Assembly: GCF_001435845.1 (NCBI RefSeq)
Contig: NZ_CM003596.1
Span: forward strand, 186,001-250,000
Direction: 5' to 3'
DNA length: 64,000 nt
From: Psychrobacter sp. P11G3
Lineage (GTDB): Bacteria; Pseudomonadota; Gammaproteobacteria; Pseudomonadales; Moraxellaceae
Positions 719 to 23,092 of this stretch are shown here, in pieces (positions within the stretch are counted from its first letter, which is position 1; each line of letters begins with the position of its first letter). Both the position numbers and the translations under genes were made by a program. Under the pieces are notes generated by a model, which was not told the origin of the DNA, did no database searches, and saw nothing but the letters and a program-made list of their open reading frames with translations.

Positions 719-2005
719 TTAACTATCAATCACTTCAAAGCTAAGACCAGAATGCGCCTCTAAGCGTGTTATTAGCTTATCTCCCATCGCAGATGCTGGT
801 GTCCAGAACCCACCGCCAACGTCCTCTTTGCTGATATCTTGTGCCAGACATAATGCCGCCTGCGAAATCATGCGAGAGGTACTGCCATAACCAGGATCTC
901 TATCACCTGTTACTTTAACGGTAATAGTGTCATTTTTAGCCGTTTGGCCAAAGTGACGAATATCAAAGTAGCCATTCTCTTGCTCGTCCTTAGAAGGGCC
1001 TGAGCCAGCTTTTGGTAAGACGTGCTTGGATAGTAACTCGCGACTTGGTTTAATCATCATCGCAGTAGCAAAGCCCAATAAACCTGCGCTCATAGCATAG
1101 CTAGACAGTTTTCCTTTGACGCCATCTTTCATCCACATTGCTTCGTCATATTTGAAATCGCGACCGTACTCATAGCTGAGCAATTGGTTAGTACGATGGA
1201 CAATACGCGTGTTGATGGTGGCCATGACGAACGGTGCTAACCAGCGCTTATGATTGCTGTCATATACTGGTTTGCTGACATTGTCCTGACGTACGTTTGG
1301 TACATCGGTATCATCGTTTAACAGGTAAGGATTGGCCACTTGTTTGCGACGTAATTTGTCTTCGCCAGCTTCTTCAAATATTGATGCCATCGATGCGATA
1401 GTACCGCCTGAGATACCACCTTTCGCTGCTTTGACACGCATATGGATGACATTACAGGTCTCGCCGAACTTCTCTTCTGCCTTAGCTTGGGTAAAGTATG
1501 CGCCCAAATCTGACGGGATAGAGTCAAAACCACAAGAATTAACAATACGGGCACCACTTTGCTTGGCAGTATCTTGGTACTTATCCATCATATCTTTGAT
1601 GAAAATGGCCTCACCAGTAAGATCGACATAATCTGTACCGTTTTCAGCACAAGATTTAATCAGTGGCTCACCATATTTCAGATATGGGCCTACAGTAGAG
1701 ATGATGACTTGAGTTTGCTTTGTCATCTTATCAAGGCTGGCAGCATCGTTACTGTTAGCAATAATAATGTCTACCTTACTCTCAAGTTTGGCCTGCAACT
1801 TATTGAGTTTATCTTCATCACGACCTGCGATTGCCCATGATACATTTGAGCCATCTTCGTTCTTATTATTTAATAAAAAATTGGTTAAATAGTGGGCAGT
1901 GATCTGACCGACGAAGCTTGTCGCACCATATAGAACAACTGCATAAGGGCGTGTGTCGCCGCTGGTTTTTTGTATAGTGGTTTCAGTATCCGTATTGGTA
2001 TCCAT
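719..2005 (-). CDS. Saccharopine dehydrogenase-like NAD(P)-binding oxidoreductase
   Basis: A 428-residue protein of the saccharopine dehydrogenase / trans-acting enoyl reductase family. After a polar N-terminus of about 20 residues there is a Rossmann fold opening with YGATSFVG, a glycine-rich dinucleotide loop. A conserved NSCGFDSIPSD segment lies near the middle, as in enoyl-reductase-like members. The substrate cannot be told from sequence; in bacteria of this group it is probably a lipid or amino-acid derivative rather than saccharopine. The ATG at 2005 is preceded by AAGGA at good spacing. The gene is alone, with its own terminator. Confidence 0.85.
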   Translation of the reverse strand: MDTNTDTETTIQKTSGDTRPYAVVLYGATSFVGQITAHYLTNFLLNNKNEDGSNVSWAIAGRDEDKLNKLQAKLESKVDIIIANSNDAASLDKMTKQTQVIISTVGPYLKYGEPLIKSCAENGTDYVDLTGEAIFIKDMMDKYQDTAKQSGARIVNSCGFDSIPSDLGAYFTQAKAEEKFGETCNVIHMRVKAAKGGISGGTIASMASIFEEAGEDKLRRKQVANPYLLNDDTDVPNVRQDNVSKPVYDSNHKRWLAPFVMATINTRIVHRTNQLLSYEYGRDFKYDEAMWMKDGVKGKLSSYAMSAGLLGFATAMMIKPSRELLSKHVLPKAGSGPSKDEQENGYFDIRHFGQTAKNDTITVKVTGDRDPGYGSTSRMISQAALCLAQDISKEDVGGGFWTPASAMGDKLITRLEAHSGLSFEVIDS

Positions 2006-2507
2006 ATGTATTGTCCTTAATAGATTTGAGAATAAGTGGATAGTAAACTATAAACCAAGTCGTTTGATTAGGTTAGGGGTTTGTGAGGTCGCTACAGTTT
2101 ATAGTTTGCAGCCTACCTCACATACTACTTCACATATAACGTGAGAAATTTAAAATAGTTCTACCTGCAGTTAGGGGAACAGAGTCCAGTAAAAGAGCAT
2201 CTAATAAAAACACGTTCAATTAAAAAGCACTTAGTTTAAGAACGCTCAGTTAAATAACGCTGTATTCAGAAATATAATTCTATTTCGAAAATATCATCTA
2301 TTAAAGAAAAAGAGGTATGAGACATTAACAGTCACTACAAACTTTACATAACCTACCGATATTATTACTAAAATGAACGTTCTTTGGAGACGAACATTGC
2401 TAATCTATAAGCGTAAATAGTAATAACTAGCATTAGATAAAAACAAGTTAAATAGATGCTATATAAATTCTAATATCTGTTTTTTACCATTATTTGAGGA
2501 GAAGATT
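2006..2507. other. Intergenic region between divergent genes
   Basis: About 500 bases separating the minus-strand oxidoreductase from the plus-strand DUF1328 gene. Around 2210-2270 there are loose repeats of AACGCTCAGTTAAATAACGC-like words, too diverged to call a repeat element. Promoters for both genes must lie here, but no strong -35/-10 pair stands out. Confidence 0.5.
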
Positions 2508-2663
2508 ATGTTTCGTTGGGCTATTATTTTTGCAGTAATCGCATTATTAGCGAGTTTCCTAGGTTTTGGTGGTGTCGCAGGCTTGTCTGCTAATTTGGCA
2601 TACATTTTCTTAGCAGTCGCTGTGATTTTGTTTATTGTTGCCTTTGTCAGTCGTAAAATGTAA
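2508..2663 (+). CDS. DUF1328 small membrane protein (YtjA-like)
   Basis: A 51-residue protein starting [20 protein letters not shown], below the size limit of ordinary ORF calling. It has two hydrophobic segments (about 4-20 and 30-47) joined by a GGVAGLSAN turn, the typical build of DUF1328/YtjA inner membrane proteins. A strong GAGGAGA ribosome site (2496-2502) sits six bases before the ATG, and a bidirectional terminator follows at once. The family is often stress-induced but has no settled biochemical role. The overlapping antisense frame (2459-2674) is its shadow. Confidence 0.9.
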
Positions 2664-2693
2664 ACATGACTCACTGTTATAAAGAATTATTAT

Positions 2694-2726
2694 GAAAAAG
2701 ACCCTCAATTGAGGGTCTTTTTTTGT
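2694..2726 (+). terminator. Bidirectional rho-independent terminator
   Basis: GACCCTCAATTGAGGGTC forms a GC-rich stem with AAAAA before and TTTTTTT after. It ends the DUF1328 gene and can also serve the minus-strand phhB-like gene ending at 2797. Confidence 0.9.
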
Positions 2727-2796
2727 CTGCTTCAACTAGGGTAATTTGTACAGAGCAAAGATAATCGGCATAAAGGCATACGTTGTAAACTTGCTA

Positions 2797-3090
2797 CTAC
2801 AACCGTTTGGGCTGAATAATATGCTCCATGCGCTTGGCTAAACGAATATCCAGACTAGATATGCCGCCTGTATCGTGATTGGTTAAACGAACTTCTACGA
2901 TATTGTAGGTGTTACGCCATTCAGGATGGTGCTCAAGCGCTTCAGCATGAAATGCCGCTTGATTCATAAAGCTCATAGCTTCGATAAAATCGCTGAAATG
3001 ATAGGTTTTGACGATACTATTGCCGTCACGCTGCCAGCCAGCAAGCTCTTCTAGCTGTAGATTGATTTGTTTGTCAGATAAACTACTCAT
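2797..3090 (-). CDS. phhB: Pterin-4a-carbinolamine dehydratase
   Basis: A 97-residue cytosolic enzyme that dehydrates 4a-hydroxytetrahydrobiopterin, recycling the pterin cofactor of phenylalanine hydroxylase. The family histidine cluster is visible in [11 protein letters not shown], followed by the typical [12 protein letters not shown] segment. The open frame runs upstream to 3174, but the ATG at 3090 has AAAGG in front and gives the usual family length, so I chose it. No phenylalanine hydroxylase gene lies beside it. The next gene upstream, a GNAT protein on the same strand, is separated by 158 bases. Confidence 0.88.
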
Positions 3091-3248
3091 ATTAATAACC
3101 TTTATTGTTATGTCGAATTGGTTTATTAAAAGTGGTGCTAGGGTATGTCTCCTATGCGAAATAAATATTTGCACATTTTTCCTGCTTTGACCGATATCAT
3201 TTAACTGAACCTAGTTAACGAATTACTTGAGCCTAATTACTTAGCTAG

Positions 3249-3542
3249 CTAAATTAAATCTTGATACTCAGGATGTTTGCTAATGTATGACGCGACAAAT
3301 GAGCATTGCGGTATCACTTTTTTGTTTTGTTCACGCGCATAATTCAATGCGTGCTTTACCAGTGCTGAACCAACGCCTTGACCGCCTAATTGCTGCGGTA
3401 CGATAGTATGATCGTAGACCAACTTGTCAGCACTTTCCTGATAGCTAATATAACCTGTCTGACCATCGATAGAGGTCTCGAAGCGTTTTGCTGCTTGATT
3501 ATGGACAATGTCTAGATTTGGTTTAGAGGTTTGGGTACTCAT
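3249..3542 (-). CDS. Small GNAT-fold acetyltransferase (YjdJ type)
   Basis: A 97-residue protein of the short GNAT class. The acetyl-CoA loop is QQLGGQGVGSALV, and the C-terminal CSFVASYISKHPEY motif is characteristic of this class, including the Cys-Ser pair and the KHPEY end. The substrate is unknown for the whole family. The ATG at 3542 has GGAG ten bases upstream. It is a single-domain protein with no extra segments. Confidence 0.85.
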   Translation of the reverse strand: MSTQTSKPNLDIVHNQAAKRFETSIDGQTGYISYQESADKLVYDHTIVPQQLGGQGVGSALVKHALNYAREQNKKVIPQCSFVASYISKHPEYQDLI

Positions 3543-18936: not shown

Positions 18937-19965
18937 ATGACCGATACGACGTCAGTGCCAAACGGCTGGGTGTGTCTGTACCCACAAGTCAGCAGTGTGA
19001 TCGATAATAGTAGTTTGACCGAAGACAATAGTGCGACCGAAGATAACAGGACAACTAGCCAAACGGTAACGATGTCTTTAGATAATCGCGGGCTGGCATA
19101 TGCTGACGGCTTCTTTACCACTATGGGTGTCATCGATGGGTTGATACTATGGTCAGATTATCATTATCAGCGGCTTGTCTCTCATGCTGAAGCCTTGCAG
19201 CTAAACATAAATAGCGAAGAGTTATTAGCCGTACTGCAACTGTATGCTCAGCAATTAGAGCAGGGTATGCTAAAGTTAGTAGTCACTCGCGCTGCGCAGG
19301 ATGTACGCGGTTATGGTTATACACCTAGTGCAAATGGAAGCGACTGTGAGATATGGTTAAAGGCTACCGCAATGAGAGTTTCCACTGCGCTGCAATTGTC
19401 TTTGCCTAATGGAAACTTGGTACCTATCCAACCTTCTGCTTCGGCAATATGCTTGTCATCTCAGATTGCTTGCTTACCGCCACCGCTGGCAGGTCTCAAA
19501 AGCCTTAATCGTTTAGACAATGTCCTCGCTAGTGTTGAGCTACAACGTATAAAAGCTGAGCCATTGGCATCAAATCTTGCTTCAACACTTGGTGAAGGTC
19601 TGCTACGCGATATGAGTGGGCAGTGGGTTGAGGGTACGATGAGTAATGTTTTCTACCAATTGGCAGAAGAGTCGCTATCGGAATCCAAAACTATCTCTAG
19701 TATTCATAAAGATGATGAAAACTACCTAACCACTGGCCAGTGGTACACCCCTTCTATGGCTCAATCGGGTGTTGCTGGCGTCATGCGTCAAGTAATTATA
19801 GATGCGCTATCCACGACGCAATATCCAGTCAGAATCAGGTCGCTACAAGATGAAGATTTGCCTAAATTAACGCAGTTATTCTTTTGCAATGCACTGCGCG
19901 GTATCATGCCAATGAGCAGTCTGACGTTGTTGTCAGGTGATGTTGTGGATTTTGAATCCGTTTAG
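18937..19965 (+). CDS. pabC: 4-amino-4-deoxychorismate lyase PabC
   Basis: A 342-residue PLP enzyme of fold type IV that releases pyruvate from aminodeoxychorismate to give 4-aminobenzoate for folate. LDNRGLAYADGFFTTM is the family N-terminal motif, and PLAGLKSLNRLDNVLA carries the lysine that binds PLP. It is longer than the usual 270 residues: an N-terminal insert (about 20-45) is built from imperfect copies of TEDN-containing sequence, and a second insert around 245-265 is rich in Ser and Lys. It starts three bases after the lipoprotein stop. In many gammaproteobacteria mltG and tmk follow directly; here about 1.8 kb intervene. Confidence 0.9.
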   Translation: MTDTTSVPNGWVCLYPQVSSVIDNSSLTEDNSATEDNRTTSQTVTMSLDNRGLAYADGFFTTMGVIDGLILWSDYHYQRLVSHAEALQLNINSEELLAVLQLYAQQLEQGMLKLVVTRAAQDVRGYGYTPSANGSDCEIWLKATAMRVSTALQLSLPNGNLVPIQPSASAICLSSQIACLPPPLAGLKSLNRLDNVLASVELQRIKAEPLASNLASTLGEGLLRDMSGQWVEGTMSNVFYQLAEESLSESKTISSIHKDDENYLTTGQWYTPSMAQSGVAGVMRQVIIDALSTTQYPVRIRSLQDEDLPKLTQLFFCNALRGIMPMSSLTLLSGDVVDFESV

Positions 19966-19968
19966 TTG

Positions 19969-20166
19969 TTATTGAAAAACAATAAATTTGGTATCAATAA
20001 AATCATCTGGATATAAAACCACTTGCTCATTTCTATACATCTCTTGCGCTTTCAAAAGCGCACTTTGCTCATCTTCTGCGACAACTTCCACGATAGTGCT
20101 TAATGTTTCGACAATTTCAACTTGAAAGGTTTGTGCTGCCTTTTTATCTTTTCTTATTATATTCAC
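19969..20166 (-). CDS. DpnD/PcfM-like small protein
   Basis: A 65-residue protein matching the DpnD-PcfM family: FQVEIVETLSTIVEVVAEDEQSALLKA, then MYRNEQVVLYPDDFIDTKFIVF. DpnD is the short protein encoded beside the DpnI endonuclease in pneumococcus and has no known activity. The frame begins with GTG at 20166. Its stop lies three bases from the pabC stop, so the genes converge tightly. The matching DpnI-like gene is on the same strand about 700 bases upstream, with an opposite-strand gene between them. Confidence 0.75.
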   Translation of the reverse strand: MNIIRKDKKAAQTFQVEIVETLSTIVEVVAEDEQSALLKAQEMYRNEQVVLYPDDFIDTKFIVFQ

Positions 20167-20309
20167 ACTCGATTCTCATATATCACTTCAGTCATTTATA
20201 GCAAGTAGATTAGCAAAAGCCCTCAAAAGAAGTGATCGTCTTTTGTTACGTGGTCTTGTGTCTTAAAGCAAATCGATCAATGCTGCTTATCTAATAAGGA
20301 GATAAGCCA

Positions 20310-20837
20310 ATGTACGAAGTTTATGAAGATGAAAGTATCCCGCTACAAATCCGTCGTTTGATGGTTTTTGATGAAATCTGTAAATTAGCGAAGAAAGAAC
20401 CTGATGAAATTATTCATTTATCAAAATTTACTCAGTTATCACTTGGAGTTATGTATCTAAAGGATTTTAAGAAATTTATAGCCTTTGGTGGTGTGTTTGA
20501 GTATGCGCATACGCGAGAAGAAGTCATTGAGCAGGGTATCGACGTTATTGCTAATGATGAATTGGTAATGTGTGCCTTGACAGTTAATCTAATTCCTTTT
20601 ACCAAACCTGCACGCAACTCGGTACAGCTGTTATGGCAGTGGAATCGCTATGTGCGTAATCGATTGCATGCTTATATTGACTATCGTGAAGAGCATTTTT
20701 TCAAAATCAATGATGAAATTGATTGGGAGTATCCAGCGCATAAGTTTCATCAGCGTCTTGTGGCTACTGCGCGATTACCATTATGGGATGATAGAGATGA
20801 GCTGATTGCCGATGTGTACCGTGACAAAAAAGGATAG
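20310..20837 (+). CDS. Hypothetical protein in the DpnI/DpnD block
   Basis: A 175-residue soluble-looking protein with a strong AAGGAGAT ribosome site before the ATG. It is rich in charged and aromatic residues and has no signal peptide or membrane segment. The central part (VQLLWQWNRYVRNRLHAYI) looks alpha-helical and basic; the end is LPLWDDRDELIADVYRDKKG. I do not recognise a family and see no catalytic motif. It lies between the DpnD-like and DpnI-like genes, on the opposite strand to both, its stop 30 bases from that of the DpnI-like gene. It may be part of the same acquired block, but this is inference. Confidence 0.75.
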   Translation: MYEVYEDESIPLQIRRLMVFDEICKLAKKEPDEIIHLSKFTQLSLGVMYLKDFKKFIAFGGVFEYAHTREEVIEQGIDVIANDELVMCALTVNLIPFTKPARNSVQLLWQWNRYVRNRLHAYIDYREEHFFKINDEIDWEYPAHKFHQRLVATARLPLWDDRDELIADVYRDKKG

Positions 20838-20867
20838 CCAAGACCTAAGCACTACAACGAGCAGCGA

Positions 20868-21632
20868 CTAGTATAATTTTCGATAGTGACCACGGCTTAC
20901 AAATTCAATGATGCCTTTATCTCGTAATACTTGTAATTGCTGACGGATTTTGTCTTTTACGTGGTTGTTTTCAGGATGTTTGAGCTGCAACTCATTAGCA
21001 AAAGCATAAACTTGATTGAGAGAAAAACTGACATCGAGACGGTCGATACATTGCCAGACATCGAGTGTCCAACCGCGTGAAGCCATAGATTGCTTGCGTA
21101 AAAATAAAGTCTTTTGGAACTGTTGGGTGACATTTTCACGCGGTATAACTTGTTGGTCTTTGACCAAAAATACTTTGCCAGATTCGGGTACTTGGCGTAA
21201 GTCAATATTGCAACCAACCCAACCTGCTCGTTTGGCATTCACTGATAAGGGTTTACGCTTAACAATAATATCGGGCGTAAAGAAATGCTTGGGAATAATC
21301 AGAAAATTATTGACGGTGTATTCTTTTGAGTAGGTCAGAAAGAAGAAACTGGGATTGTCCTTACTATTGATACGCTCAATCATCGTCTTATAAGCGCCAT
21401 CATTGACAACATTGCTTAACTTGGCTTTTTTACTTTTTAGCTCATATTGCTCATTACAATTTTCGCAATAAAAATCAGCAACAGGTTTGTTATTAGCAAA
21501 CTCAGCTAGCGACTGGGCGCTACAATTGGTGCAGTAACTATTTTCTTTTACCTATGCTTCACTGAGTACACGAACTTTTTGAGGTTCAGAGTGATAGTTT
21601 TTAGCAAGACTTTGGTTGAAATGTAGGTTCAT
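20868..21632 (-). pseudogene. DpnI-like methyl-directed restriction endonuclease, interrupted by one amber codon
   Basis: Read from the ATG at 21632 the frame encodes 254 residues, the length of DpnI, except that codon 27 (21552-21554) is TAG. DpnI has tryptophan (TGG) at that place, so a single G-to-A change explains it. After the stop the frame stays open and the expected parts are all there: zinc-binding pairs C34-x2-C37 and C56-x2-C59, catalytic D53 and E64-L-K66 (in VADFYCENC and EQYELKSKK), and a C-terminal winged-helix part ending QLQVLRDKGIIEF. No ATG, GTG or TTG lies in frame between the stop and the catalytic residues, so the first usable ATG (21383) gives a 171-residue product without the active site. 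DpnI cuts adenine-methylated GATC. The gene is probably recently inactivated, unless the stop is read through or is a sequencing error. Confidence 0.9.
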
Positions 21633-21802
21633 AAGATATTTTCATTATTAATAGATAAGCTGAGAATACTGAAAAAAACATCTAAGTATTAAGCCATATA
21701 AACTGCTATCAATAGCAAGATAATTCATAAGCTAAGCAAATACCATTGAAAATCGCACGGTTCAGTGCTAAATTCTAGCAAACATCTGCCTCGCGAGTTG
21801 CC

Positions 21803-23092
21803 ATGAGCAAGCCTACACCCAATATACCACCTGAACGTCCCAATGAGTCGCCGTCAAACAAACAAGATGGCACAGTCGAGGAGCGTGTCGATACCACGCT
21901 GCCGGACGCGCAACCAGTGGTAGATGAGGTGCAAGACACATCAGCAACGCCAGCAACCAACGTCTCGCTCATCAGCGGCAAAAGTAAACCGCGCCAATAT
22001 AAAGTTAATAACCCATCGTTTTTTATGCAACGCGGCTATCAAGTGCTGCTAGTGTTGGGGCTAATTGCTGCGTTTTTCTTGGTCATGGTTTATCAGACGT
22101 TGTTTGGTCGTATCGAGCAGCCGCAGCAAATGGTCACGATTGAACCAGGTCAGACCTATTATGGTCTACTACCGCAGTGGCAGCAGCAGATTCCGCTGTT
22201 TTCGGCAGGCGTGGCCAAGCTGTATATCAAATCGCAAGTCGATGCACCGTTGCATGCTGGTACGTATCAATTACCCGAAAACCCGACTATCGCTGAGGCG
22301 CTACAGATACTAGGTCAAGGCGCAAAAGCGGCTATGGTCAAGGTACAGATCATCGAAGGTAAGACATCTAAAGACCTTTATCAAGCGCTGCGTGATAATG
22401 ACAAAATCGAAAAAGAAGTACTGACCGCAGATAGTGACAATGCCAGTATCGCCCAAGCATTGGATTTGACAGGTGTATTACCAGACAGTGTGGCTAATAG
22501 CAGTGACCCGATTGTTAACTATAATCTTGAAGGTTGGTTCGCGCCTGATACCTACTATTACGGTGAAGGAACCAGCGATAAAAAAGTACTGACTGACTTG
22601 TATAAGCGTCAGCAGCAGGTACTGACTGATGCGTGGGAAAATCGTGCGCCGAATCTGCCTTATAAGAGTCCATATGAAGCGCTAGTCATGGCGTCTATTA
22701 TCGAAAAAGAGACCAGCGTTGCTGATGAACGTCCTTTAGTCTCTGCCGTGTTTAGAAACCGTTTGAATAAAAACATGCGTATGCAGACGGACCCGACCAT
22801 CATCTATGGTATGGGCAGTCGTTATGATGGCAATATCCGCCGCAAAGACATCAATGAAAAAACGTCTTATAACACCTACCAAATTGATGGTTTACCGCCA
22901 ACGCCAATTGCGCTACCATCAGCGGCTTCTATCGAAGCGACCTTACATCCTGCCGATAGTGAAGCGTTGTATTTTGTGGCAACGGGCAATGGCGGGCACA
23001 AATTTACCAATAGCTTGGCTGAGCACAATCAAGCGGTAAAAGACTATCTCAGTGTCATGCGTGAGAAAAAATCTCAAACACCGCCGCAGTAA
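21803..23092 (+). CDS. mltG: Endolytic murein transglycosylase MltG
   Basis: A 429-residue membrane-anchored protein that cleaves nascent peptidoglycan and helps set glycan length. A cytoplasmic tail of about 78 polar residues precedes one membrane helix (about 80-98). The catalytic domain follows; the catalytic glutamate is E301 in VMASIIEKET, and the RNRL...MQTDPTIIYG segment is the YceG family signature. The N-terminal tail is longer than in E. coli. Start is the ATG at 21803. With tmk about 90 bases downstream it keeps the usual mltG-tmk order. Confidence 0.94.
   Translation: MSKPTPNIPPERPNESPSNKQDGTVEERVDTTLPDAQPVVDEVQDTSATPATNVSLISGKSKPRQYKVNNPSFFMQRGYQVLLVLGLIAAFFLVMVYQTLFGRIEQPQQMVTIEPGQTYYGLLPQWQQQIPLFSAGVAKLYIKSQVDAPLHAGTYQLPENPTIAEALQILGQGAKAAMVKVQIIEGKTSKDLYQALRDNDKIEKEVLTADSDNASIAQALDLTGVLPDSVANSSDPIVNYNLEGWFAPDTYYYGEGTSDKKVLTDLYKRQQQVLTDAWENRAPNLPYKSPYEALVMASIIEKETSVADERPLVSAVFRNRLNKNMRMQTDPTIIYGMGSRYDGNIRRKDINEKTSYNTYQIDGLPPTPIALPSAASIEATLHPADSEALYFVATGNGGHKFTNSLAEHNQAVKDYLSVMREKKSQTPPQ

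Follow-up and report, generated by a model that had tools for sequence, protein, structure and literature searches.

An interrupted DpnI gene and its neighbors

The stretch of DNA analyzed here (the window; 64,000 nucleotides of contig NZ_CM003596.1 from Psychrobacter sp. P11G3) carries a DpnI-type cassette between two genes that we take to be pabC and mltG. The cassette comprises a homologue of dpnC, the gene for the DpnI endonuclease, together with a dpnD-like gene and a companion gene that is convergent with the DpnI gene (Table 1). In the pneumococcal DpnI cassette, dpnC is likewise accompanied by dpnD. The protein encoded by the companion gene matches no family in Pfam, NCBIfam or PADLOC, and its structure model (mean pLDDT 66.8) yielded no fold match at E <= 0.001. 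Homologues occur in 65 of the 105 Psychrobacter genomes surveyed, and among the 91 related proteins found, every one that names an organism names Psychrobacter. Several genomes carry the companion gene as two tandem divergent copies (for example, G058 at locus L137).

Table 1. Coordinates of features in the window and in other Psychrobacter loci (G, genome; L, locus or contig)
Feature	Position	Strand	Basis or remark
Left flanking gene, called pabC	18937..19965	+	Open frame and locus comparison
dpnD-like gene	19969..20166	-	PF14207, 45 bits; GTG start assumed, stop included
Companion gene of DpnI cassette, 175 aa	20310..20837	+	Open frame; no known family
dpnC-like DpnI homologue	20868..21632	-	254 codons plus final stop; TAG at codon 27 breaks the frame
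In-frame TAG, codon 27	21552..21554	-	Frame translation and alignment
Internal open frame, 171 aa, from 21383	20868..21383	-	DpnI_C kept; catalytic residues missing
Right flanking gene, called mltG	21803..23092	+	Matched in 104/105 genomes
Exchanged block	19972..21721 (against G093, to 21737)	.	No DNA match in relatives with the R-M allele (G094, G065, G093)
Plasmid-like contigs	L140 (G063), L141 (G007), L142 (G039), L147 (G073)		
81-89 aa gene and its relatives	L140 4097-4351; L141 2685-2939; L147 6190-6438; L112 6707-6976		
523-aa protein	L131 (G104) 1863-3434		Repeated YAWG-like motifs

As the initial annotation proposed, the interrupted gene is a full-length DpnI homologue. Its conceptual translation matches the Pfam DpnI domain (PF06044) over residues 1-180 with 267 bits (cut-off 26.7) and DpnI_C (PF17726) over residues 185-252 with 116 bits (cut-off 23), and the solved enzyme DpnI (4esj) aligns over residues 1-253 with 326 bits. 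Both domains of the family are present over the full length of the gene, and the frame is broken by the TAG. The residues preceding the stop align without gaps to the N terminus of 4esj, and the stop itself falls on a tryptophan. Among 76 full-length Psychrobacter sequences, this codon specifies tryptophan in 74; the window and G006 have a stop instead. The residues singled out in the annotation, namely C34, C37, C56 and C59, which we take to be zinc cysteines, and D53, E64 and K66, presumably catalytic, are identical in all 76 sequences, including that of the window. The shorter frame opening at 21383 starts past all seven of these positions, as the annotation's reading of it as catalytically incomplete had anticipated. 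The genome contains a single DpnI copy, and the strain would be unable to restrict methylated DNA through it.

Intact copies 95-98% identical to the window gene are present in 11 genomes. The nearest of these, in G048, shares 97.5% DNA identity with it and differs by 13 synonymous and 5 non-synonymous changes, giving a dN/dS of 0.09; the median for intact nearest pairs is 0.107 (n = 64, with four sequences having five or fewer synonymous differences skipped). At codons that are fixed in the 11 close intact copies, the window departs from them only by the stop, its sole unique non-synonymous change, and by one synonymous change at codon 227. Where the close copies themselves vary, it has a synonymous change at codon 99 and an amino-acid change at codon 213. 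Because dN/dS lies near the intact median and so few changes are unique to the window, the gene appears to have been constrained normally until very recently. The loss looks as recent as the annotation had supposed, with no further decay, and the most plausible reading of the window DpnI gene is a null allele of very recent origin.

Apparently opposite restriction cassettes between the same flanks

A DpnI match was found in 84 of the 105 Psychrobacter genomes, and 12 of the 21 genomes without one carry a restriction-modification (R-M) cassette between the same two flanks. DpnI and GATC-type R-M cassettes therefore alternate at a single site (84 versus 12 of 105). Classified by the content of the pabC-mltG gap, 70 genomes have an intact DpnI gene, 11 a broken one and 12 the R-M cassette, while seven have neither allele (G026, G034, G040, G047, G076, G101 and G104). 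Three DpnI genes were set aside as doubtful, two from assemblies that are 84 and 86% complete and in which mltG is also in pieces (G049 and G051) and one split over two contigs (G086); two genomes were left unresolved, one with no mltG match (G080) and one in which the locus is cut by a contig end (G087). The DpnI cassette consists of dpnI, usually dpnD and often the companion gene. The dpnD family (PF14207) is represented in 62 of 70 genomes with intact DpnI, 8 of 11 with broken DpnI, all three doubtful genomes, none of the 12 with the R-M cassette, and one of the seven with neither; the corresponding counts for the companion gene are 54, 7, 3, 0 and 1.

By similarity, each of the 12 R-M cassettes encodes a D12 methylase, a beta-class methylase, a protein of 81-89 aa and a helix-turn-helix (HTH) protein. 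Typing of the methylases and endonucleases relies for the most part on one or two representatives of each kind: two D12 genes score 280 and 315 bits with the dam model (cut-off 115), one D12 gene compared with solved structures is most similar to DpnM (2dpm), and one beta-class gene matches CcrM (6pbd) first and DpnA (5hek) second. The endonuclease slot holds one of four kinds. It is occupied by a MutH-like gene in six cassettes (G020, G027, G045, G071, G074 and G094), with a weak similarity of 25-46 bits against cut-offs of 230-243; by a DUF6997-type gene in three (G044, G079 and G093), one of which was scored as the type II restriction enzyme REase_II by PADLOC; by a PD-(D/E)XK candidate in two (G055 and G065, related to each other), with a match below the cut-off; and by a DpnII-family gene (PF04556) in one (G096). 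Judged from these similarities, the R-M cassette is expected to methylate GATC and to cleave DNA that lacks this methylation. The DpnI cassette would cleave GATC solely where the adenine carries a methyl group.

Some loci show further rearrangement. The R-M allele is itself modular: between L127 (G093) and L128 (G094), the beta-class methylase part is 92% identical in DNA, with no DNA match over the part containing the HTH gene, the D12 methylase and the endonuclease. A second copy in G045 (L139) has a D12 methylase gene that is split in two, with other frames intervening, next to a DpnII-family endonuclease. At L131, the protein with YAWG-like motifs listed in Table 1 occupies the swap site in place of a restriction gene. 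A stretch of three genes (encoding 1020-1030, 228 and 229-249 aa) is found in L119 (G047), L134 (G039) and L135 (G073), where it sits between mltG and either dpnI or the companion gene and represents a further insertion at the pabC-mltG site.

Replacement of one cassette by the other is apparent among very close relatives of the window strain. Three genomes with the R-M allele (G094, G065 and G093) have mltG genes 99% identical to that of the window. Their DNA match to the window ends at 19971 (94% identity) and resumes at 21722 or 21738 (95-96% identity), with none across the cassette, and this pattern of matched flanks around an unmatched middle indicates that the cassette was exchanged as a block. 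Since the flanks are common to both cassettes, homologous recombination through them could replace one by the other.

The distribution of the alleles was examined on a tree of 103 mltG proteins, the gene adjoining the site, obtained by a quick maximum-likelihood search. On this tree, in which 32 of 95 inner branches are open and five rows are long, the R-M allele (12 genomes) needs 12 changes, at least 10 of them forced by starred branches, and breakage of DpnI (11 genomes) needs 11 changes, at least nine of them forced. Neither the R-M nor the broken labels are more clustered than shuffled labels. Among the R-M genomes, identity of the beta-class methylase tracks that of mltG (Spearman 0.84, 66 pairs), and the D12 methylase does so as well (Spearman 0.69, 39 pairs), the pairs being non-independent in both cases. 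The R-M allele thus looks about as old as the genus, unlike one recent import.

A Dam-like methylase (PF02086, E below 1e-50) occurs in 4 of the 84 genomes with a DpnI match and in 12 of the 21 without one (Fisher p 1.9e-7, a value inflated both by counting related species as independent and by replacement at a single site, which makes the exclusion partly automatic). Weaker PF02086 matches of 21-89 bits in six genomes (G010, G056, G069, G083 and G085, with DpnI, and G087, without) were taken as other methylases or chance.

Four genomes combine an intact DpnI frame with a Dam-like methylase and an endonuclease on plasmid-like contigs. In G007 (P. celer DSM 23510), G039 and G063, the endonuclease is of the DpnII family and the contigs measure 5.8, 7.8 and 8.7 kb; in G073, it is of the DUF6997 type, on a contig of 7.0 kb. 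Rep3 replication genes are present on three of the four contigs and a MobA/MobL gene on that of G039, and similar methylase-endonuclease pairs are found on the named plasmids NZ_MN657038.1 and pYP14d. If both systems are active and the contigs belong to these genomes, the combination should be lethal by self-cutting. Possible explanations are that the contigs are foreign, that DpnI is silent in these strains, or that the reading of the two cassettes as opposite defenses is incomplete. A lost promoter was sought as an explanation by aligning the upstream regions of the window gene, its counterparts in ten close relatives (with G095 truncated at a contig end), G007, G083, G085 and G042, and the alignment shows no loss in G063. 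The region upstream of dpnI in G007 is divergent from the aligned rows, and in G039 and G073 the three-gene stretch lies between dpnI and mltG.

The 81-89 aa gene of the R-M cassette has relatives, 68-70% identical, beside Rep3 genes on plasmid-like contigs (Table 1). This resemblance hints that the R-M cassette may derive from such plasmids.

Repeated breakage of DpnI across the genus

The 11 broken DpnI genes include six with a single in-frame stop (at codons 27, 27, 62, 81, 181 and 231), three that are frameshifted (G013, G014 and G021) and two remnants (G037 and G043). Some of these may be errors, for example the stop in G075, whose assembly is 85% complete, and the three frameshifts. For comparison, mltG is a single full-length piece in 98 of 103 loci, with inner stops in G049 and G062; this count omits stops in the last three letters of an alignment, and when all stops internal to a match are counted, the loci affected are G001, G038, G062, G074, G077 and the second piece of G049. 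On the mltG tree, broken alleles are seen only at the tips. Null DpnI alleles arise often.

Several of the other single-stop alleles resemble that of the window in their constraint, with dN/dS values to the nearest intact sequence of 0.15, 0.19 and 0.10 in G066, G041 and G016, respectively. The allele of G006 is too distant from intact sequences to provide a value. That of G075 differs from its nearest intact sequence, in G010, by one synonymous and four non-synonymous changes, and so the evidence for constraint does not extend to every broken copy.

Origin of the stop and comparison with known swap sites

The stop is real in the assembly and is most probably an ordinary, recent null mutation in a defense gene. 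A wrong base call in a gene that is really intact would account for the fact that a single base separates the window sequence from an open frame whose remainder is normally constrained. We consider such an error improbable, as the assembly is nearly complete (5 contigs, completeness 100) and single in-frame DpnI stops occur in five other genomes, against inner stops of mltG in two of 103 loci. The annotation had also raised suppression of the stop, by which some full-length enzyme would still be made. Two of the six single in-frame stops do fall at codon 27 and are TAG in both cases, in the window and in the distant G006 (P. arenosus), and the simulated chance of at least two stops at this codon is 0.004-0.03, depending on the transition bias assumed. 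Six stops would, on the other hand, coincide at some codon or other with a chance of 0.17-0.28. With 150 of the 175 initial candidates scored, the 50 tRNA matches in the genome include none with a CTA anticodon, which leaves suppression without a visible agent and makes read-through very improbable. A special meaning of codon 27 was set aside, since at that chance of coincidence two shared stops among six carry too little weight to call for a special mechanism.

A third possibility is that acquired methylation of GATC adenines forced the loss, as in the annotation's suggestion that the strain had gained Dam methylation. A methylating R-M allele is indeed found at the same site in the very close relatives G094, G065 and G093, and R-M pairs of this sort are carried by plasmids of Psychrobacter. 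Yet the window genome has no match to PF02086, PF01555 or PF05869, the three families searched, so that no resident methylase of those families accounts for the loss, and none of the 11 genomes with broken DpnI is among the 22 of 105 that have a PF02086 match; this account, too, seems unlikely, although a plasmid since lost, a phage or a methylase of some other family might have supplied the methylation. We give least credence, and very little, to the idea that the truncated protein initiated at 21383 recognizes methylated GATC and does not cut it: its frame retains the C-terminal DpnI_C domain, but the breaks in other genomes, at codons 27, 62, 81, 181 and 231 or as frameshifts and remnants, form the pattern of plain loss. 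What stands of the earlier interpretation is the DpnI identity, the recent stop, and the lack of the conserved residues in the short frame; suppression and a gain of Dam methylation are not supported. The annotation had overlooked the adjoining dpnD and companion genes, the R-M cassette that close relatives carry at this site, and the recurrent, independent breakage in the genus.

We thus regard it as highly probable that the window holds a freshly inactivated allele of the DpnI cassette, at a pabC-mltG site where Psychrobacter alternates between two opposite GATC defenses. As DpnI has no partner methylase, its loss would leave the cell itself unharmed. A more speculative extension, which we consider possible though doubtful, is that the site maintains the two defenses as a long-lived trans-species polymorphism in which short-lived DpnI nulls, made repeatedly by single stop codons, act as bridges in the swap. 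Such "off" states might then admit methylated plasmids or the R-M allele into DpnI lineages.

Psychrobacter are mostly environmental bacteria, and the textbook example of a site that can hold either of two opposing restriction systems is the pneumococcal dpn locus. The dpn locus of S. pneumoniae is described as a single chromosomal site for alternative cassettes, with either DpnI, an enzyme that cuts methylated GATC, or two methylases and an endonuclease (PMC3573125; PMC12707154; PMC4263131); the primer names dpnCup and dpnDdo appear in one of these sources (PMC3573125). Like the DpnI/DpnII/DpnIII alternatives at dpn, the Psychrobacter site holds either a DpnI cassette or a methylase pair with an endonuclease; its DpnI allele carries dpnD, and its R-M allele has, by similarity, DpnM/Dam-like and DpnA-like methylases in 12 of 12 cases. 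Unlike dpn, it is flanked by pabC and mltG, includes the extra companion gene, the HTH gene and the 81-89 aa gene, and uses four endonuclease types, a DpnII-family enzyme appearing in just one of 12 R-M alleles.

A second precedent is the drg (dam replacing gene)/dam alternation of Neisseria at leuS, in which one site holds either a DpnI-type gene or a GATC methylase (PMC4269198; PMC516771). In Neisseria meningitidis, drg alleles carrying frameshifts have been described (PMC516771), and so DpnI loss is not in itself new. As at drg/dam, a DpnI-type gene alternates at one site in Psychrobacter and some of its alleles are frameshifted. The Psychrobacter locus differs in lying at pabC-mltG rather than next to leuS, in having a whole R-M cassette as the alternative, and in its single in-frame stops (6 of 84 genomes with a DpnI match). 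Judging by its title, a report on Streptococcus suis describes one locus with variable defense systems, a likeness that extends to the site described here (PMC5398294). Our full-text literature searches returned no report of a dpn-type swap site in Psychrobacter.

Taken alone, the window's one stop codon is unremarkable. The larger observation is that the arrangement known from pneumococcal dpn recurs across a genus: of 105 genomes, 12 have the R-M allele and 11 a broken DpnI gene, and both are dispersed over a single tree. The Psychrobacter site lets one ask about the frequency of cassette exchange, the lifetime of null alleles, and whether the loss of DpnI precedes the gain of methylation. 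It is the locus that is worth keeping, for the replacements and losses mapped onto this tree are numerous enough for a study of the way in which opposite restriction systems swap.
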